Part shown: positions 4,581 to 40,156 of the stretch, one piece after another
Numbering within the stretch: the stretch's first letter is position 1
Layout of the letters: each line of letters begins with the position of its first letter
NCBI RefSeq assembly: GCF_030296015.1
Contig: NZ_AP027368.1
Coordinates: 4,016,839 to 4,080,838, forward strand
Source: Ferrimonas sp. YFM
GTDB taxonomy: Bacteria; Pseudomonadota; Gammaproteobacteria; Enterobacterales; Shewanellaceae
DNA: 64,000 nucleotides
Reading direction: 5' to 3'
Position numbers and translations under genes: made by a program
Notes under the pieces: generated by a model
Database searches by the model: none
Told to the model about the DNA's origin: nothing
The model's input: the letters and a program-made list of their open reading frames with translations, nothing else

Positions 4581-6785
4581 ATGCCAACCAAAGTTTCTTC
4601 TTCGGTATCAGCATTGGCGCTGAGCCTCTCCCTGGCGATGCCCGCCCTGGCGAACGAGGGCCAGTGGCTGCCAATGCAGATGCCGCAACTGGCGGATGAG
4701 CTGAAACAAGCCGGTATCCGTCTGCCAGCGGATCAGCTGGCCGATCTGAACCAGTATCCAATGAATGCGGTGGTGGGGCTCGGCTATTGTACCGCCTCCT
4801 TCGTCTCACCCAAAGGCCTGGTGGTCACTAACCATCACTGCGCCTACCGGGGCATTCAGTTTAACAGCAACGAAGAGCACAACTACCTGGATGATGGCTT
4901 CCTGGCCACCTCCATGGATAAGGAGCCCTCTGCCGGCCCCCAGGAACGCCTCTACGTTACTGACAAGATTGAAGATGTGACCGACAAAGTGTATGCCGGA
5001 ACCACCGACGAGATGGACGGCTACCAGCGCTATCACACCATCCAGGGCAACCGTAAAGCCCTGCTCAAGGAGTGCGAGTCCAACGACAACTATCGTTGTC
5101 ACGTTCGCAGCTTCCACGGCGGCAAGAAGTACTATCTGCTTCGCCAGCTGATGATTCGTGACGTTCGCCTGGTGTATGCCCCACCTCAGAGCGTCGGCTC
5201 CTACGGCGACGACATCGACAACTTCGAGTACCCCCGTCACAGCGGTGACTTCACCTTCCTGCGTGCCTATGTGGCCCCGGACGGCTCACCGGCCGCCTAC
5301 AGCGAAGAGAACGTGCCCTACCAGCCCAAGAGCTTCCTCAAGGTCAACGCCAGCGGCGTTCGCGAAGGGGACGGCGTTCTGGTGGCCGGTTATCCAGGCC
5401 GCACCAGCCGCCACAAGCTGCTGAGCGAGCTGGAGTTCGCCTCCGACTGGCAATACCCGGTGGCCGCCAAACGCTACCAGCACCATATTGATCTGATCGA
5501 TCAGTACGGGATGGACGATGGCGTCATCAAGATCGCCTACGCCGGCACCAAGGCCAGCCTGGCCAACCGCATGAAGAAGCTCAACGGCCTGCTGGACGGC
5601 TTCCGCAAGACCGACATCCCCGCCATCAAGGGCAGCAGTGAGCAGGCGTTCATCGACTGGCTGAAGGCCGATGCCAAGCACGCCAATCAGCTGGCCAAGG
5701 TGGATGAACTGCAGCAGAAGCTGGCCAAGCAGCGCGACTACAAGCAGCGCGCCTTCTACTTCGAAAACGCCCAGTCCAGTGCCATGCTGAGCACAGCCAA
5801 TCGCCTCTACAAGCTGGCGAACGAGCGTCAGAAGCCGGACGCGGAGCGTGAAGAGGGCTATCAGGAGCGTGACATGAAGATGCTCCAGGGTCGCCTCAAC
5901 CGTCTGTCTCGCAGCTACGACTCCCGTATGGACCGGGCCCTGTGGCAGACCGACATCGACGCCTACCTGGGCCAGGACAACCGTACTGCGGCCCTGGACA
6001 AGGCCTTGGAGACTCTGGATCTGGATCAGGCCTACGCCAACACCGAGCTGCATGACGGCGCCAAGCGTCTGGAGTGGATGACCCAGCCGGTCGACGCCTT
6101 CAAAGCCAGCAATGACCCCTTCATCCAGATGGCCGTGGCTCTGTATGACGCCAACGAAGCCAACCGCAAGGAGCGCCAGACCCTGGCCGGTGAGATCACC
6201 GCCGCCCGTCCCGCGGTAATGGATGCCCTGCTGGAGTGGTACGACAGCCGCAACCAGCCTGTGTACCCTGACGCCAATGGCACCCTGCGCATCAGCTATG
6301 GTGTGGTGGATGGTTACCAGTCTGCCGACGCCCTCTACAAGCAGCCCTTCACCAAGCTGGAAGGGATTGTGGAGAAGCACACCGGCGTCTACCCCTTCAA
6401 CGCCCCTGAAAAGGTGGTCAAGGCGATCCAGGCCAAACGCTACGGCAGCTTCTTCCAAGAGAGCCTGAAGGCCGATAACCAGGCCTGGTACTGCGCCATC
6501 TTCTCCTGTCCTGAAGCCCGTGATGCTCACTTCGGCTCGGTGCCGGTGAACTTCCTCTCCAGCGTTGACACCACAGGCGGCAACTCAGGTTCCCCCATCC
6601 TCAACGGTGACGGCGATCTGGTGGGCCTGAACTTCGACTCCACCTATGAGTCCATCACCAAGGACTGGTACTTCAACCCGGAAATCACCCGTGCGGTGCA
6701 CGTGGATTTCCGCTACGTACTGTGGATGATGGAGCAGGTCGACAGCGCCAACAACCTCCTTAACGAGCTGACCCTGGTGGAGTAA
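4581..6785 (+). CDS. S46-family dipeptidyl-peptidase (DPP7/DPP11-like), exported
   Basis: Serine exopeptidase that releases dipeptides from peptide N-termini in the periplasm. The start at 4581 follows AAAGGGA and gives a signal peptide ending near ALA-NEG (about residue 25); an upstream in-frame extension lies over the dnaB promoter and was rejected. The catalytic elements are the His pair in TNHHC (85-86), the Asp cluster in YGDDIDNFEYP (about 210-213) and Ser669 in GGNSGSP. The length of 734 aa is typical. The residue after GLNFD, Ser687, sits where I recall DPP7 has Gly and DPP11 has Arg in the S1 pocket, so specificity cannot be read off directly. The gene is monocistronic with its own terminator. 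Confidence 0.93.
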   Translation: MPTKVSSSVSALALSLSLAMPALANEGQWLPMQMPQLADELKQAGIRLPADQLADLNQYPMNAVVGLGYCTASFVSPKGLVVTNHHCAYRGIQFNSNEEHNYLDDGFLATSMDKEPSAGPQERLYVTDKIEDVTDKVYAGTTDEMDGYQRYHTIQGNRKALLKECESNDNYRCHVRSFHGGKKYYLLRQLMIRDVRLVYAPPQSVGSYGDDIDNFEYPRHSGDFTFLRAYVAPDGSPAAYSEENVPYQPKSFLKVNASGVREGDGVLVAGYPGRTSRHKLLSELEFASDWQYPVAAKRYQHHIDLIDQYGMDDGVIKIAYAGTKASLANRMKKLNGLLDGFRKTDIPAIKGSSEQAFIDWLKADAKHANQLAKVDELQQKLAKQRDYKQRAFYFENAQSSAMLSTANRLYKLANERQKPDAEREEGYQERDMKMLQGRLNRLSRSYDSRMDRALWQTDIDAYLGQDNRTAALDKALETLDLDQAYANTELHDGAKRLEWMTQPVDAFKASNDPFIQMAVALYDANEANRKERQTLAGEITAARPAVMDALLEWYDSRNQPVYPDANGTLRISYGVVDGYQSADALYKQPFTKLEGIVEKHTGVYPFNAPEKVVKAIQAKRYGSFFQESLKADNQAWYCAIFSCPEARDAHFGSVPVNFLSSVDTTGGNSGSPILNGDGDLVGLNFDSTYESITKDWYFNPEITRAVHVDFRYVLWMMEQVDSANNLLNELTLVE

Positions 6786-6800
6786 TCCTCGGGTTCAACG

Positions 6801-6830
6801 AAAAAGGCGCACTCAGGTGCGCCTTTTTTT
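6801..6830 (+). terminator. Intrinsic terminator after S46 peptidase gene
   Basis: A 12-bp perfect stem (6801-6812 with 6817-6828) has loop TCAG and ends in a run of T, 15 bases after the stop codon. Confidence 0.85.
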
Positions 6831-6897
6831 GGTCCGCGGCTGTGCTCTGGGCGTACTTCAAAGGAGTTCACCGAACAGGCTTAGCCAAGGAGACACC

Positions 6898-7134
6898 ATG
6901 AATCGGCCCAAACTACTCATCACCGCCCTGTTAGGTTCCTTTACCATGGGGCTCATCATGTCCGCCGCCCTGACCACCATCCATACCGGCTTCGACGCCA
7001 ACTGGACGCTGCGCTGGGGGGAGAGCTTTCTGATGGCCTGGCCTCTGGCCTTCCTCCTGAGCCTGACGGTGATGCCCAGGGTGGCCGAACTGGCCGGCTC
7101 TCTGATCTCAGAGCCCGTACGCAGGACCAAATAG
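6898..7134 (+). CDS. DUF2798 small inner-membrane protein
   Basis: A 78-aa protein with two predicted membrane helices, about residues 8-28 and 44-64 (GSFTMGLIMSAALTTI and FLMAWPLAFLLSLTVMP). The N-terminal PKLL, the Trp-containing middle and the helix-breaking Pro near the end fit DUF2798. The start at 6898 is fixed by AAGGAGA seven bases upstream; a longer frame back to 6817 would begin inside the preceding terminator. No function is known for the family. It is flanked by terminators on both sides and so is probably a single-gene unit. Confidence 0.75.
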   Translation: MNRPKLLITALLGSFTMGLIMSAALTTIHTGFDANWTLRWGESFLMAWPLAFLLSLTVMPRVAELAGSLISEPVRRTK

Positions 7135-7141
7135 CAGACAT

Positions 7142-7172
7142 AAAAAAACACCGCCCGGAGGCGGTGTTTTTC
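7142..7172. terminator. Bidirectional intrinsic terminator (DUF2798 gene / rplI)
   Basis: ACACCGCC (7148-7155) pairs with GGCGGTGT (7160-7167), extended by A:T pairs, with A and T runs on the two sides. It lies between the convergent DUF2798 gene and the rpsF-rplI operon. Confidence 0.82.
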
Positions 7173-7195
7173 AATCTTCCGGCTAATGCGGCAGA

Positions 7196-35941: not shown

Positions 35942-36036
35942 TTTCAGCACCTCTCACTATAAAAGATCGACTTCACATATTTTTATAACAACAAAACCTA
36001 ACTATTGCCGATTTAACAGCCAAAAGTAATTGGACA

Positions 36037-36058
36037 TGATAATCGTTCGCATTTATTA
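36037..36058 (+). promoter_or_regulatory. Possible Fur-type operator upstream of bfd
   Basis: TGATAATCGTTCGCATTTATTA keeps the left half-site TGATAAT and an AT-rich but imperfect right half. The 30 bases between it and bfd contain TTATTATG, a possible -10 region. Iron control of bfd is expected; the site itself is imperfect. Confidence 0.4.
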
Positions 36059-36088
36059 TGAGCCCAGTTCAACAGAAGGGTTGTCACC

Positions 36089-36280
36089 ATGTACGTTTGC
36101 ATTTGCCACGCCGTCACCGAAAAACAGGTCCGCCAAGCGGTGGACGACGGCGCTACCGACGTGAAATCACTCAAGCAGAAGCTGGGTGTGGGTAGTGAAT
36201 GCGGCCGCTGCATTCAGGCAACCCTGGAAGTGATTCAGGCTCAGACAGACGCCCAGCCACGCTACTACGAAGTCGCCTGA
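36089..36280 (+). CDS. bfd: Bacterioferritin-associated ferredoxin
   Basis: 63 aa with the [2Fe-2S] ligand pattern Cys4-x-Cys6 and Cys38-x2-Cys41 ([20 protein letters not shown]). Reduces the haem of bacterioferritin to release stored iron. It stands directly before bfr, its partner. Confidence 0.95.
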
Positions 36281-36369
36281 CACTGACCCATCCCCCCTCT
36301 CCAGCCCTTTTTGACAGGGGCTGGAGCGCTTCTATGCTTAATCGTTGTCCCCACAAAAAGAGCACAACG

Positions 36370-36843
36370 ATGAAATCTGATCCGAAAGTCATTACCCACC
36401 TGAATAAGGTGCTGTTCAACGAACTCATCGCCATCAATCAGTATTTCCTTCATGCCCGTATGTACAAGGACTGGGGCCTGAAGCGGATCGCCGACAAGGA
36501 ATACGATGAGTCCATCGACGAGATGAAGCACGCCGACAAGCTGATCGAACGGATCCTGTTCCTGGAGGGGCTGCCCAATCTGCAGAGCCTGGGGAAGCTG
36601 CGCATCGGTGAGAACACCAAGGAGATGCTGGAGTGCGACCTTGCCCTGGAGATGGACGCCATCGGAGATCTGAAGGAAGCGATCGCCTACTGCAAATCGG
36701 TGCGCGATTATGTCAGCGGCGAACTGCTGGACGACATCCTCGAGGATGAAGAGGAGCATGTGGACTGGTTGGAGACCCAGCTGGAACTGATCGACAAGGT
36801 GGGCATCCAGAACTATCTGCAAACCCAAACCATCGACGAATAA
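36370..36843 (+). CDS. bfr: Bacterioferritin
   Basis: 157 aa from the ATG at 36370 (upstream in-frame codons belong to the intergenic region). All dinuclear-iron ligands are present: Glu18, Glu51, His54, Glu94, Glu127, His130, and the haem ligand Met52. Each matches E. coli Bfr numbering exactly, so this is a full ferroxidase-active subunit of the 24-mer. Lies 89 bases after bfd. Confidence 0.97.
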
Positions 36844-36891: not shown

Positions 36892-37677
36892 CTAGGCGCT
36901 GTGCTGCGCTTGGGGCAGTTCGCCGCCTCGCGCCAGGGTGAGCCTCACCAGGGCACACACCACAGCCAGGGTGCAGACTATGGTGGCTCCTGAGGGCAGA
37001 TCCCAGGTGGCCGATGCCCACAGTCCCAGCAGGTAACCGGTCAGGCCGGCACCATACCCCAAAACCAGAGCCTTGGTGCCCTTCAGCCGGTTCACCGCCA
37101 GCGCCGGCAGGATCAGGCTGGAGAACACCAGGTAGACTCCCACCAACTGCACAGAGAAGGTGATCATAAGGGCAAACAACGGGTAGAAAGCGCGGCCACT
37201 GAGCAGCGCCGGACGCCACAGCAACAACCCCAGCACCAGGGCGGTGCACAGGCCAGGCAGCTTGAGCGCGGGCCAGTCGGTCCAGAGGATCTGCCCGGAG
37301 AGCAGCTGCTTCAGCAGTTCGCCGCCATGGGGGTCCTTGGCCAGCAACAACATGGCCGCCACCGCCGACAGCACATAGAGGCAGCCAATCATCGCCTCAA
37401 GCTCCGCCTTGGCGTGCTTCTCCAGCAGGGCAATCAGGCCTGCGCCAACCAGAGCGAACAGCAGTGGCATCCACAGACCAGAGCCGGCCAGGTGCGCCAG
37501 CTCATGATGAGTGGATGCGAATACCGCCCCCAATGCGGCGATCTGTGCGATCGCCAGATCGATAAAGATGATCCCCCGGGCCAGCACCTGCCGCCCCATC
37601 ACCACGTGGCTGGCCAGCACCAGGGTGCCCGCCGCCAGTGCAGGCAACAGAATACTGAACATGGTGAGATCAAACAT
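36892..37677 (-). CDS. Metal ABC transporter permease (ZnuB/ABC-3 family)
   Basis: 261 aa with about seven or eight membrane helices. The ABC-3 pattern is visible in LVLASHVVMGRQVLARGIIFIDLAIAQIAALGA near the N-terminus and LVGVYLVFSSLILPALAV (coupling region) near residue 190. Start chosen at the Met of MFDLTMFSIL (37675-37677), overlapping the end of the binding-protein gene by 8 bases, so translation is coupled. No ATP-binding subunit is encoded in this operon or elsewhere in the window; an unlinked ZnuC would have to supply it. Zn(II) or Mn(II) is the likely cargo. Confidence 0.86.
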   Translation of the reverse strand: MFDLTMFSILLPALAAGTLVLASHVVMGRQVLARGIIFIDLAIAQIAALGAVFASTHHELAHLAGSGLWMPLLFALVGAGLIALLEKHAKAELEAMIGCLYVLSAVAAMLLLAKDPHGGELLKQLLSGQILWTDWPALKLPGLCTALVLGLLLWRPALLSGRAFYPLFALMITFSVQLVGVYLVFSSLILPALAVNRLKGTKALVLGYGAGLTGYLLGLWASATWDLPSGATIVCTLAVVCALVRLTLARGGELPQAQHSA

Positions 37678-38581
37678 CGTTGCTCTCCAGAGTCTCCAGC
37701 AGCAGCCTGATGTTGGTGTCATACAGCTGGAACAGATCGTCTGCCTCCTCGACACCAGGGCCGAAAGGCAGCTGCAGCACGGGGATCTTGGCTCTCTGTC
37801 CCAGCCACTGGGCACCGCGGCCATCCTGATAGCCGGTGTAGATCACCGCCATGATGGGGGTGGACTCGGTGAGCTTCAGCAGCTGTGCCAGGTGACCTGT
37901 GGTGGGCGGCAGCCCCGGCTTTGGTTCAAGGTCTCCCGCCTGTTCCATGCCCAGCCAGTCAAACAGATACTGGAAGCTGGTGTGGTAGGCGATCACCTTC
38001 TTGCCCTTCAGAGGCGCTGCAGCGGCTTCCCAACGAGTGGTCGCCTGGGACCAGCGCTGGCTGAAGTCCGCCAGGTTAGCCTGGTAGTCACTCTGATGTT
38101 CCGGGTCTAGCTCCACCAGCTTGGCGGTCACCGCTTCGGCGACGGACAGCATCCGCTGTGGGGAGAAGTGGAAGTGAGGGTTACCGCCGGCATGCACATC
38201 GCCCATGGAGCGGTCGACTTTATCCAGCTTGCCCAGGGTGTCCACATACTCGGCAGCATAGAGCATGCCCGGCTGTCCATCACGAACCTTGCGGTTGTTG
38301 GCCTTCATCTGCAGCATCGGCAGCCAGCCCACCTCCAGTTCGGCGCCAGCACAGATCGCCAGATCCGCACGTCGCAGTTTGGAGATCAAACTGGGCCTGG
38401 CCTGCACGTGGTGAGGATCCTGCAGAGCGGTGGTGGCACTGGAGACATTGGCCTCCGGCGCCAGCTCCTTGGCCAGAGCGGCGTACTCCGGCTCACAGGT
38501 AAAGATATTGAGCGCCCAGGCTTGGGGCGCTGCAAGCAGCGCCGCCAGCACGGGCAGGGTCCATTTAGAACTGGTGCGCAC
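37670..38581 (-). CDS. ZnuA-like periplasmic metal-binding protein
   Basis: 303 aa with a signal peptide ending AWA-LNI. Cluster A-1 fold; probable metal ligands are the His in DPHHVQARPS (about 57-58), the His in GGNPHFHFSP (about 136-138) and the His in IAYHTSFQY (about 200), a triad expected for zinc. It lacks the long His-rich loop of E. coli ZnuA, having only VHAGGNPHFHF. The start overlaps the upstream outer-membrane gene by 17 bases. Confidence 0.86.
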   Translation of the reverse strand: MRTSSKWTLPVLAALLAAPQAWALNIFTCEPEYAALAKELAPEANVSSATTALQDPHHVQARPSLISKLRRADLAICAGAELEVGWLPMLQMKANNRKVRDGQPGMLYAAEYVDTLGKLDKVDRSMGDVHAGGNPHFHFSPQRMLSVAEAVTAKLVELDPEHQSDYQANLADFSQRWSQATTRWEAAAAPLKGKKVIAYHTSFQYLFDWLGMEQAGDLEPKPGLPPTTGHLAQLLKLTESTPIMAVIYTGYQDGRGAQWLGQRAKIPVLQLPFGPGVEEADDLFQLYDTNIRLLLETLESNDV

Positions 38582-39746
38582 CGTGAGCTCCTAATGCCAT
38601 AACGAATTGCAGAGTCAGGATCTGGTCGTCCTTGGAGCCAAACAGCTCATCATCCTGATGGGTGTACTGCAAGCGAACGGTAGAGAAGTGGCTGTTGTGC
38701 CAGGCGACCATCACCTCGGTCTCCTTCAGTTTGCCCTCTTCGAAGTGCAGGTGGTGCTCGCCATCATGCTCCTCTTCGTGGCCCATGGAAGCGGTCAGCT
38801 CGCCATAGCGCACACCGGCAGACCAGTTGGGATTGAACTGATACACACCAGACACATACCAGCCCTTGTAGTCGGCAGGCAGATTCTCTTCGCCACCGGC
38901 CTCCTCGAAGGGCTTGTCCATCAGCATATATTCTGCGGACAGAGTCAGGAAGTTGTTCTTGTAGTTACCGTTGGGCGCCCATTTATAGACGGCATCCAGG
39001 CTGTAGAGATCACGGCCGGTCAGAGACGCACTGTGGCTGTGGCCGGCGTGGGCGTCACCCTCATCGGCGTGCTCCTCGTGCTCCTCCTCTTCATGCTCTT
39101 CATGGTGGCCCTGACCGTTTTCGTTGCGCAGCCAGGAGAAACCCAGCTGCCAGCTGTGGTCAGTGCCCCAGTCGCCACCCAGCTTGGTGTACAGGTGATA
39201 AACGCCCACACTTTCCAGTTCAGACTCTTCGATGCCTTCCGCTTGCAGGCTGTCACCGGAGAAACCTTCGGCACCCAGTACCCAGTAGGTCTCGGTGGGG
39301 GCTACCCAGTTCAGACGCAGACCGTCATCGAAATAGTGACCGCCCAAGAAGGCGCGGTAGATGGCAGGACGCTCTACGAAGGAGTCGGAGTGAGGGTGCT
39401 GGCTGTTCAGGTAACCCAGGTCAGACAGGAAACGACCGCCGCGGATGGAGAGGCCACCAGGCAGACCCATAGTCTGGATGAAAGCTTCCTCCAGCTCCAC
39501 CTCGGTGTCACCGTCGTGGGTTTCCAGCACTGTGGTCAGCTTGCCGTAGAACTGATCGTCGATGGCGCCACTGATGGCCAGTTCGGTTTCACCCAGGCCA
39601 AGACCGTCTTCACGGCTACCCAGGGCGCGATCGCCATCCTGGTAGTAACCGTCCAGTACGACGCTGATGGCAGGGTTGTTGGCCGCAAACACGGAAGCAG
39701 AAGCGCAGGCCAGAACCAGGCCCGCGGTAACAGCATTCAGTTTCAT
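38565..39746 (-). CDS. Outer-membrane beta-barrel protein with His/Glu-rich loops, probable metal porin
   Basis: 393 aa. Signal peptide (ending VFA-ANN), then a porin-like barrel of alternating strands (GLSIRGGRFLSDLGYLNSQ; SWQLGFSWLRNEN; NFLTLSAEYMLMDK; GWYVSGVYQFNPNW; VRLQYTHQDDE) ending in Phe. Two loops are extreme in His, Glu and Asp: about 221-247 (GHHEEHEEEEHEEH...HAGHSHS) and about 330-345 (GHEEEHDGEHHLHFEEG). These look like metal-collecting surfaces. No TonB box or plug domain is visible, so it is not a classical TonB receptor. Overlap with the ZnuA-like gene ties it to metal uptake. AGGAAC precedes the start. Confidence 0.82.
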   Translation of the reverse strand: MKLNAVTAGLVLACASASVFAANNPAISVVLDGYYQDGDRALGSREDGLGLGETELAISGAIDDQFYGKLTTVLETHDGDTEVELEEAFIQTMGLPGGLSIRGGRFLSDLGYLNSQHPHSDSFVERPAIYRAFLGGHYFDDGLRLNWVAPTETYWVLGAEGFSGDSLQAEGIEESELESVGVYHLYTKLGGDWGTDHSWQLGFSWLRNENGQGHHEEHEEEEHEEHADEGDAHAGHSHSASLTGRDLYSLDAVYKWAPNGNYKNNFLTLSAEYMLMDKPFEEAGGEENLPADYKGWYVSGVYQFNPNWSAGVRYGELTASMGHEEEHDGEHHLHFEEGKLKETEVMVAWHNSHFSTVRLQYTHQDDELFGSKDDQILTLQFVMALGAHGAHQF

Positions 39747-39833
39747 TGTTCTTTGTTCCTAAAAATCGCATAGGGTCACGCCCACCACGGGACATGACGG
39801 AAAAAATAAAAATATATTTTTGGATATAACGAC

Positions 39834-40112
39834 TTAGGACAAAGGAGGGCCGCGAATGACGCAGCGCCGCTGTGGCCCAACCTGAGGCTTGCACGTATCT
39901 ACAGGAATGGGTTGCGGATGAACCGACGGCAGAAGCGCCTTGGGCAGAGAGGGAGTCAGGGCCTTGGCCTGATGATCCCCGTGGAAGCACCAGGCACACT
40001 GAACCAGATCCTGGTGAACATCGAAGTGATAAACAGCATGAGCCGGGGCCGCCAGTGACAGGACCAGCACCCAGAGCACCATCAACTTTGTCAGAAGGGT
40101 CCTGAAGCTCAT
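39834..40112 (-). CDS. Small exported Cys/His-containing protein of the metal operon
   Basis: 92 aa. A signal peptide (MSFRTLLTKLMVLWVLVLSL, cleaved near AHA-VYH) is followed by HFDVHQDLVQCAWCFHGDHQ, a CxxC with five His within 20 residues, then a Pro-rich tail with two more Cys. This may be a periplasmic metal chaperone; it loosely recalls DUF2946-type proteins. No good ribosome-binding site precedes the ATG. It is first in line on the minus strand before the outer-membrane gene, 87 bases away across an AT-rich stretch. I am moderately sure it is a gene. Confidence 0.55.
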   Translation of the reverse strand: MSFRTLLTKLMVLWVLVLSLAAPAHAVYHFDVHQDLVQCAWCFHGDHQAKALTPSLPKALLPSVHPQPIPVDTCKPQVGPQRRCVIRGPPLS

Positions 40113-40143
40113 GCAATTTTGAATTTGACTTAATTGAGGCCAT

Positions 40144-40156
40144 GTTAGCCGCTAAC
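40144..40156. promoter_or_regulatory. Palindrome upstream of the metal-uptake operon
   Basis: GTTAG-CCG-CTAAC, flanked by AT on the left and GAT on the right, lies 32 bases before the first gene. Position suggests an operator (Zur would be the expected regulator), but half-site spacing differs from the usual Zur box. Confidence 0.3.

Follow-up and report, generated by a model that had tools for sequence, protein, structure and literature searches.

An ABC-3-derived permease operon of Ferrimonas with an outer-membrane barrel and no ATPase: a candidate ATP-independent zinc uptake system

Closest described systems and the Ferrimonas operon

High-affinity metal import by ATP-binding cassette (ABC) transporters is taken to require ATP. 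An ABC-associated membrane part can work without a motor, as the solitary energy-coupling factor S-component BioY does, and TRAP and TTT systems carry out binding-protein-dependent secondary transport. The permease folds of BioY, TRAP, and TTT are unrelated to ABC-3, and we know of no ABC-3 metal permease with motor-free or secondary operation. Here we describe a four-gene operon within a 64,000-nucleotide stretch of the Ferrimonas sp. YFM genome (NZ_AP027368.1, positions 4,016,839 to 4,080,838; hereafter the window) that encodes a small exported protein, an outer-membrane barrel, a ZnuA-type binding protein, and a permease of the ABC-3 family. Our data indicate that this is probably an uptake relay for zinc, or a related divalent metal, in which a His-rich barrel feeds a permease that operates without an ABC ATPase. 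The operon resembles the ZnuABC, MntABC, and PsaABC importers (presumably those termed cluster A-I) in its ZnuA-family binding protein with three histidines and in its ABC-3 permease family, and differs from them in having no ATPase, no coupling segment, a metal triad that reads L-Q-E, with a new D alongside, in place of D-H-D, and a linked barrel.

The closest described system, znuBII-znuAII-omr of Vibrio parahaemolyticus (VP_RS21420-21430; ZnuAII is Vpa1307), consists of the same three genes. The available portions of the Vibrio papers present it as a second ZnuA and ZnuB with a "TonB-dependent" receptor, in a species that also has ZnuABC, and V. campbellii is named there as a carrier of the cluster (PMC9817125). 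At a V. campbellii locus (L161; L labels denote fetched stretches of related loci and G labels denote genomes), the binding protein contains AHGNPHVQFA and the barrel ends in GAHGAHAF, both of which are encoded by primers in the available portion of PMC3794297 (translated by eye); a third primer peptide, DKQDPHYVQAR, differs from L161 at its first residue. The window permease is 44.6% identical to that of L161, and gene order and binding-protein sequence place the operon, via L161, in the Vpa1307/ZnuAII operon family. For Vibrio, this type of operon has already been described as a zinc system. The portions of the Vibrio papers available to us make no mention of a missing helix or of ATP independence, and in the open-access text that we could consult we found no statement that the permease is without a coupling helix or operates independently of an ATPase. 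Unlike V. parahaemolyticus, the window's genome (G000, a single contig of 4.66 Mb) has the operon as the only ZnuA-type system found, since a PF01297 search of it returned one ZnuA-family gene, the operon's own. The Vibrio ZrgABCDE system is similar in being a Zur-regulated zinc importer with a small protein (DUF2607) and differs in its DUF2796 binding protein and in the presence of an ATPase (PMC9817125, in the portion available).

The four genes all lie on the minus strand, in the order small exported protein, barrel, binding protein, and permease, followed by a terminator. Positions are those of the window, as are the proteins referred to as window proteins:

39834..40112, minus strand: small exported Cys/His protein, 92 amino acids (open reading frame; signal peptide by eye; CAWCFHGDH; C-terminal RGPP)
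38565..39746, minus strand: outer-membrane beta-barrel, 393 amino acids, with a pair of His/Glu-rich loops and without a plug (last residue Phe; signal peptide judged by eye)
38565..38581, minus strand: overlap of barrel end and binding-protein start, 17 nucleotides (read from the sequence)
37670..38581, minus strand: ZnuA-type substrate-binding protein, 303 amino acids (PF01297, 136.5 bits, cut-off 29)
37670..37677, minus strand: overlap of binding protein and permease, 8 nucleotides, ATGTTTGA (read from the sequence)
36892..37677, minus strand: ABC-3-derived permease, 261 amino acids, without coupling helix (PF00950, 40.7 bits, cut-off 20.1)
37192..37215, minus strand: site of the deletion of about 19 residues, at permease residues ~155-161, where canonical ABC-3 permeases have the coupling segment (alignments)
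36884-36864, minus strand: stem of an intrinsic terminator, then CTCTTTTTTT, with a T-rich tail to about 36854
40144..40156, plus strand: palindrome GTTAGCCGCTAAC upstream of the operon, loosely kept in the two closest species

An 87-nucleotide gap separates the end of the small gene from the barrel gene, the binding protein starts at a GTG at 38581 with AGGAG 7 nucleotides ahead, and the permease, whose open frame extends to 37824, likely starts at the ATG at 37677, giving 261 amino acids.

We found that the permease is carried by 40 of 60 relatives and that the barrel, binding protein, and permease genes are adjacent in 38 of these 40 stretches; one exception lies at a contig end (L081) and the other is an unrelated second system (L083). 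Within the class Gammaproteobacteria, 90 of 369 genomes hold a family permease at 145 bits or more (counted by hand); three more have broken pieces at 70-106 bits, and canonical ABC-3 permeases reach at most 61 bits. All three genes of the trio are whole in 37 of 40 class-wide stretches, the exceptions being a broken barrel (L148), a broken binding-protein frame with no barrel match (L152), and a lone truncated permease (L145). It is also present in V. campbellii (L161) and, in another phylum (Campylobacterota), on a Sulfurovum mangrovi plasmid (L162), where the genes are annotated as hypothetical protein, zinc ABC transporter substrate-binding protein, and metal ABC transporter permease. In 33 of 34 loci judged by eye (the window and L044-L076; QGPP in L057), the barrel is preceded by a small frame that finishes near R(A/G)PP. 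A scan with the window permease returned four Ferrimonas species, with F. futtsuensis the closest match at 98%. The sequence-only reading of the window had described a four-gene metal-uptake operon on one strand with a terminator, and the coordinates, the two overlaps, and the stem bear this out. Its proposal of a dedicated route is supported, as a metal route from outer to inner membrane, by the linkage of the trio, and the co-occurrence of the genes in other genomes, which it suggested checking, is seen for the trio and for the small frame.

The coupling segment and the search for an ATPase

PF00950 matches G000 in three places, two of which are FecCD permeases by Pfam, so that the operon permease is the sole ABC-3 permease of this genome. 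Aligned with E. coli ZnuB, the family permeases are without about 19 residues. We measured the affected segment as the number of residues between two conserved anchor glycines, which is 52 in the window permease. Across the permeases of 81 relatives, over which residue and neighbourhood counts for the family permease are given, the spacing is 52 in 65, 51 in six, 49 in two, and 53, 50, 47, and 56 in one each, with 68 in three and 64 in one. The segment is thus deleted or degenerate in 81 of 81: 77 have 47-56 residues and a four-member clade has 64-68. This clade (L141-L144) consists of divergent ATPase-less permeases in which the filler has no canonical motif, and it is perhaps an intermediate. 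Canonical or ATPase-linked ABC-3 permeases have exactly 71 residues in 36 of 36 distinct cases, compared to none of the 81 family members; the comparison set comprised 23, 11, and 3 rows, with L176 and L189 being the same gene. An ATPase gene lies beside 34 of the 36; L181 and L182 show none in the fetched stretch, yet retain the 71 residues and the motif. In a profile comparison, the canonical motif that is absent from the family aligns with LDEASAQSLGV in a FecCD permease (probability 91%), a segment which we take to be the coupling helix of the BtuC fold. In importers of this kind, coupling helices link the membrane and ATPase parts (PMC11779740, in the portion available). By these alignments, the part of the permease expected to touch an ATPase is gone.

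We also searched G000 for a partner ATPase. All 81 candidates were scored with the ZnuC model and nothing exceeded the cut-off. The best match to the ZnuC model NF007090, at 114.6 bits, was rejected as an orphan ZnuC since its neighbours read as a nos cluster, which makes it NosF. Among the top ZnuC-model loci, the highest whole-protein score with our own profile, 205 bits, fell to a 653-residue two-domain frame (L010), which was read as ABC-F and not as a transporter ATPase. With a broader profile, A3, built from 19 ATPases beside canonical or sister ABC-3 permeases, the best match among the best 44 of 114 candidates reached 167 bits; its gene adjoins a FecCD permease (L205), and it is the FecCD partner. 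No ABC-3-type ATPase was found in G000 by the ZnuC model or by A3 on those 44 candidates, and the operon itself is without the cognate ATPase that accompanies ZnuABC-type importers. The operon is accordingly without an ATPase, as first read. The companion claim, that the absent ATP-binding subunit has to be shared or come from a gene elsewhere, is left unsupported because the ATPase-contact segment is lost and no ABC-3-type ATPase was found; the orphan znuC whose search had been suggested did not emerge. Nor did G000 show another complete znuABC controlled by a Zur box, which had been named as an observation that would speak against the reading: one ZnuA-family gene was found in it, and its one FUR-family regulator is Fur. 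Of the overall interpretation, the dedicated route is supported and the shared or distant ATPase is not.

We tested 109 carriers, many of which are close kin and several of which are draft genomes: 40 among the 60 relatives and 69 further class genomes (the class test set held 70 of the 90 class carriers, one of them G000). Scoring the best 44 (relatives) or 37 (class set) candidates per genome, we found an ABC-3-type ATPase in 42 of the 109 and none in 67 (32 of the 40 carriers among the relatives and 35 of the other 69). A line at 233 bits proved too strict, as PsaB scores 194.9 and genuine operon ATPases score 183-199, and the counts were redone by neighbourhood because that line missed true ABC-3 ATPases. 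Among the relatives, eight of 40 have such an ATPase: G051 and G057 at over 300 bits and the others confirmed by neighbours, namely G001, G004, G006, G007, G013, and G036, where ATPases of 183-199 bits lie in complete binding protein-ATPase-ABC-3 permease operons. In the class set there are 34 of 70, 28 by score over 233 bits and six at 199-207 bits checked by neighbours. The group without has nothing over 180 bits, and four of its listed matches at 167-179 bits were checked and are FecCD partners. Separate complete binding protein-ATPase-ABC-3 permease operons were seen in L191-L195, from five Ferrimonas genomes, and in L196; G000 has no second ABC-3 permease.

The neighbourhoods of the 81 permeases were likewise scored with the broader profile, since a ZnuC-only profile also missed the ATPases of canonical operons. 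One locus of the 81, L145, has an ABC ATPase frame at less than 1.5 kb from its permease, and this frame is of the PotA/PhnT2 type. The permease there (5675-6313) is a truncated, lone C-terminal half that looks like a decaying remnant. Four more loci have ATPase frames 3.2-4.3 kb away: in L121 it is the znuC of a complete znuABC, in L124 a 209-bit frame cut by the end of the stretch, and in L080 and L082 frames of 132 and 79 bits. In L140 and L081, the fetched stretch ends within 1.5 kb of the permease on one side.

These data bear on two alternatives. An ordinary ZnuABC whose ATPase gene was missed or degraded would fit the Pfam matches to ZnuA and ZnuB, but it is already contradicted, and we give it hardly any weight: G000 is one contig, the single permease-adjoining ATPase among 81 is of another type, and one deletion is common to the permeases. 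Alternatively, the permease may borrow an ABC ATPase of the ZnuC, MntB, or FecE type in trans, docking by another surface. Sharing is possible in the 42 carriers since they hold an ABC-3-type ATPase, V. parahaemolyticus has znuC (PMC9817125, in the portion available), and G000 yields 75 ZnuC-model matches, pieces included. We nonetheless regard borrowing as unlikely, given that all 81 family members have a missing or degenerate coupling segment, that all 36 canonical or ATPase-linked permeases have an intact one, and that 67 of 109 carriers, G000 among them, have no ABC-3-type ATPase among the candidates scored.

Pore residues and sister systems that keep the ATPase

MntC requires the D-H-D triad of Asp47, His51, and Asp94 (PMC8487065, in the portion available). 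In the family permeases, the triad His is Gln and the second Asp is Glu, each in 80 of 81 (Q44 and E93 in the window protein), and the first Asp is shifted by one place, Asp39 adjoining the original position in 80 of 81. In place of the D-H-D triad of ZnuABC-type importers, the family reads L-Q-E with a new D beside it. The family also has residues of its own: His23 (77 of 81), His116 (73 of 81), Glu119 (75 of 81), and Trp131 (80 of 81). Since these are nearly invariant (73-80 of 81), they suggest selection on a working protein and a maintained path, not decay.

Some sister systems have kept the motor. On one strand of L185 (G400) lie, in order, a barrel (128.8 bits against the family profile), a binding protein (177 bits), an ATPase (241 bits), and a permease with the 71-residue segment. 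L189 (G341), at a contig end, has a binding protein, an ATPase, and a 71-residue-segment permease, as does L199 (G111), which turned up by chance and has no barrel in view. These sister systems share the binding-protein subfamily with the operon (L185, and in part L189 and L199), and L185 has the same barrel family; they differ from the operon in keeping the ATPase and the 71-residue segment. In L185 and L189, Gln and Glu at the pore positions, together with SPHG, accompany a coupling segment and an ATPase. Sister systems were found in two of 369 class genomes, and no more were seen in the order of G400 (five genomes) or on plasmids.

A tree of 60 permeases (36 family members, L185, L189, and 22 canonical), built with the coupling columns left out and without L199, unites the family with L185 and L189 on one branch against the 22 canonical permeases (support 100/99). 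Within it, the members without an ATPase group on a single branch (90/61), subject to a long-branch warning. A tree of binding proteins (27 family, 23 canonical, and L185; L199 absent) gives a joint branch of 100 and an ATPase-less branch of 67. The rare sisters have retained the ATPase as well as the helix, so the motor and its contact site seem to have disappeared together, and the simplest story from these sequences would be one joint loss, which the trees do not prove.

The pore residues raise a further alternative, in which the permease no longer transports and is an anchor, docking site, or sensor; the barrel and binding protein would then fill the periplasm with metal or pass zinc to another importer such as the ZIP-like protein. 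The permease could have lost transport because the His that is essential in MntC is absent, Gln taking its place in 80 of 81, and G000 carries a divergent ZIP-like gene that falls short of the Pfam cut-off. Yet polar and charged residues are strongly conserved, including D225 and the family-specific H, D, E, Q, and W positions, and the change of the pore need not mean loss of transport, since L185 and L189 share the Gln/Glu pore and SPHG and keep segment and ATPase. We consider a non-transporting permease quite unlikely and continue to favor a transporting one.

Barrel, metal, and mode of transport

The barrel is present in a single copy in G000, and its family ends in GAHGAHQF by alignment. 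The extreme His/Glu loops noted at first sight are beyond chance: in the window barrel, the richest stretch of 25 residues has 19 H/E/D compared to at most 14 in 200 shuffles, and among 24 family members 18 exceed all of their own shuffles, four tie, and two fall below. In L078 the barrel gene (5685-7175) has a long run of masked letters within its His-rich loop. The initial description of a non-TonB barrel also holds. Plug and TonB-receptor families match none of the 24 members (Pfam, E up to 1); at the same threshold the matches are weak and porin-like (Porin_4 in 13, BBP2 in four, and Porin_O_P in two of 24; best 1.7e-5), and the window barrel is under all Pfam cut-offs. Neither the plug nor the size of a TonB-dependent receptor is present, the family measuring 378-425 residues (one counted with masked letters removed). 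This differs from the "TonB-dependent" label of omr, which we judged via the V. campbellii relative. The small protein of the window has no Pfam match; four relatives' small proteins match PF11162 (DUF2946) at 12.5-24.3 bits, one above the cut-off of 23.7, and the protein is perhaps a distant DUF2946 relative.

The binding proteins retain the three zinc histidines of ZnuABC-type importers. H57, H136, and H200 (ZnuA H60, H143, and H207) are invariant in all 78 family binding proteins over 225 bits; in the same 78 and in L185, the position of the fourth ligand, ZnuA Asp279, is a gap and Glu219 is present. In V. parahaemolyticus, znuBII, znuAII, and omr rise 283-, 543-, and 1034-fold on zinc depletion, and znuAII zrgA double mutants grew worse than the zrgA mutant in 30 uM TPEN (PMC9817125). 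Vpa1307 was induced by TPEN, its deletion in another strain caused a growth defect, and its function depended on His69 and His148, which were changed together (PMC3794297).

Zur boxes with zero or one mismatch lie upstream of the operon in five of 75 loci (L078, L079, L080, L082, and L135), and two lie ahead of the V. campbellii operon; Zur control is indicated at these six loci and neither in G000 nor in 33 loci of the window's own family. Sites with up to three mismatches number 13 in 54 kb of upstream sequence compared to 32 in 1,057 kb elsewhere. In the 33 same-family loci there is no Zur box within two mismatches, and four have a site at three mismatches (0.7 expected from the rate elsewhere). 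A de novo dyad search upstream gave nothing clear over background. The palindrome at 40144-40156 occurs once in the window (0.11 expected; reached in 10 of 100 shuffles) and, as a candidate Zur box, has one mismatch in the closest species and two in the next. The single FUR-family regulator of G000 is Fur rather than Zur.

The relatives' Zur boxes and the zinc induction of the Vibrio homologue suggest that the metal is zinc, which in Ferrimonas we infer from these relatives. The same architecture with manganese or iron as the main metal in Ferrimonas would accord with the absence of a detected Zur in G000, with the alignment gap at the fourth ZnuA ligand, and with the convergent bfd and ferritin-family neighbours. 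However, the three-histidine site is kept in 78 of 78, some relatives have Zur boxes, and the Vibrio homologue is zinc-induced with a zinc-depletion phenotype (PMC9817125, PMC3794297, in the portions available), and we hold this alternative to be very improbable. The neighbours in question, bfd and a ferritin-family gene (PF00210), occupy window positions 36000-36843, adjoin the operon, and converge on it; an AT-rich, Fur-box-like stretch lies upstream of bfd (by eye). A divergent ZIP-like protein of 256 amino acids with His-rich loops was also seen (G000 C1:4600016-4600264; L089 1255-2025, plus strand). It scores 19.5 bits against PF02535, under the cut-off of 35.1, and is a possible second zinc route.

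We propose that the operon is most likely a binding-protein-dependent, ATP-independent zinc permease system. The His/Glu-rich barrel would collect metal at the cell surface and admit it to the periplasm, where the small Cys/His protein may assist. The ZnuA-type protein would bind the ion by its three histidines and dock on the permease, a descendant of ABC-3 importers, which would pass the ion across the inner membrane without an ABC ATPase. Import is the direction that we infer, and membrane potential, proton exchange, or cytoplasmic sinks might provide the driving force.

Several observations weigh against this proposal. The loss of the helix is read from alignments, and the AlphaFold model of the permease is of low confidence (pLDDT 43), as is that of the barrel (pLDDT 29). 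The ATPase searches scored a limited number of top candidates per genome, and an ABC-3-type ATPase is encoded somewhere in the genomes of 42 of the 109 carriers. The permease is without the His that is essential in MntC (PMC8487065), and a single origin of the ATPase-less family is weakly supported (90/61 and 67). The G000 search found no Zur in Ferrimonas and no clear Zur box, and among class loci one of 37 has a Zur box. In addition, a single znuAII mutant grew like wild type in one strain (PMC9817125).

With these points considered, we lean slightly toward a new binding-protein-dependent mode of transport, in which an ABC permease that has permanently lost its ATPase and coupling helix is a secondary, ATP-independent zinc transporter with its own barrel. 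If this is true, a widespread family demonstrates ATP-free transport by the ABC-3 fold, and the helix-bearing sister provides a natural before-and-after pair. Our data also advise caution in assigning an "orphan znuC" to such operons, and the published Vibrio gene name omr is in doubt because the barrel family is without a TonB-receptor domain. Zinc uptake would gain an outer-membrane partner that has no such domain.

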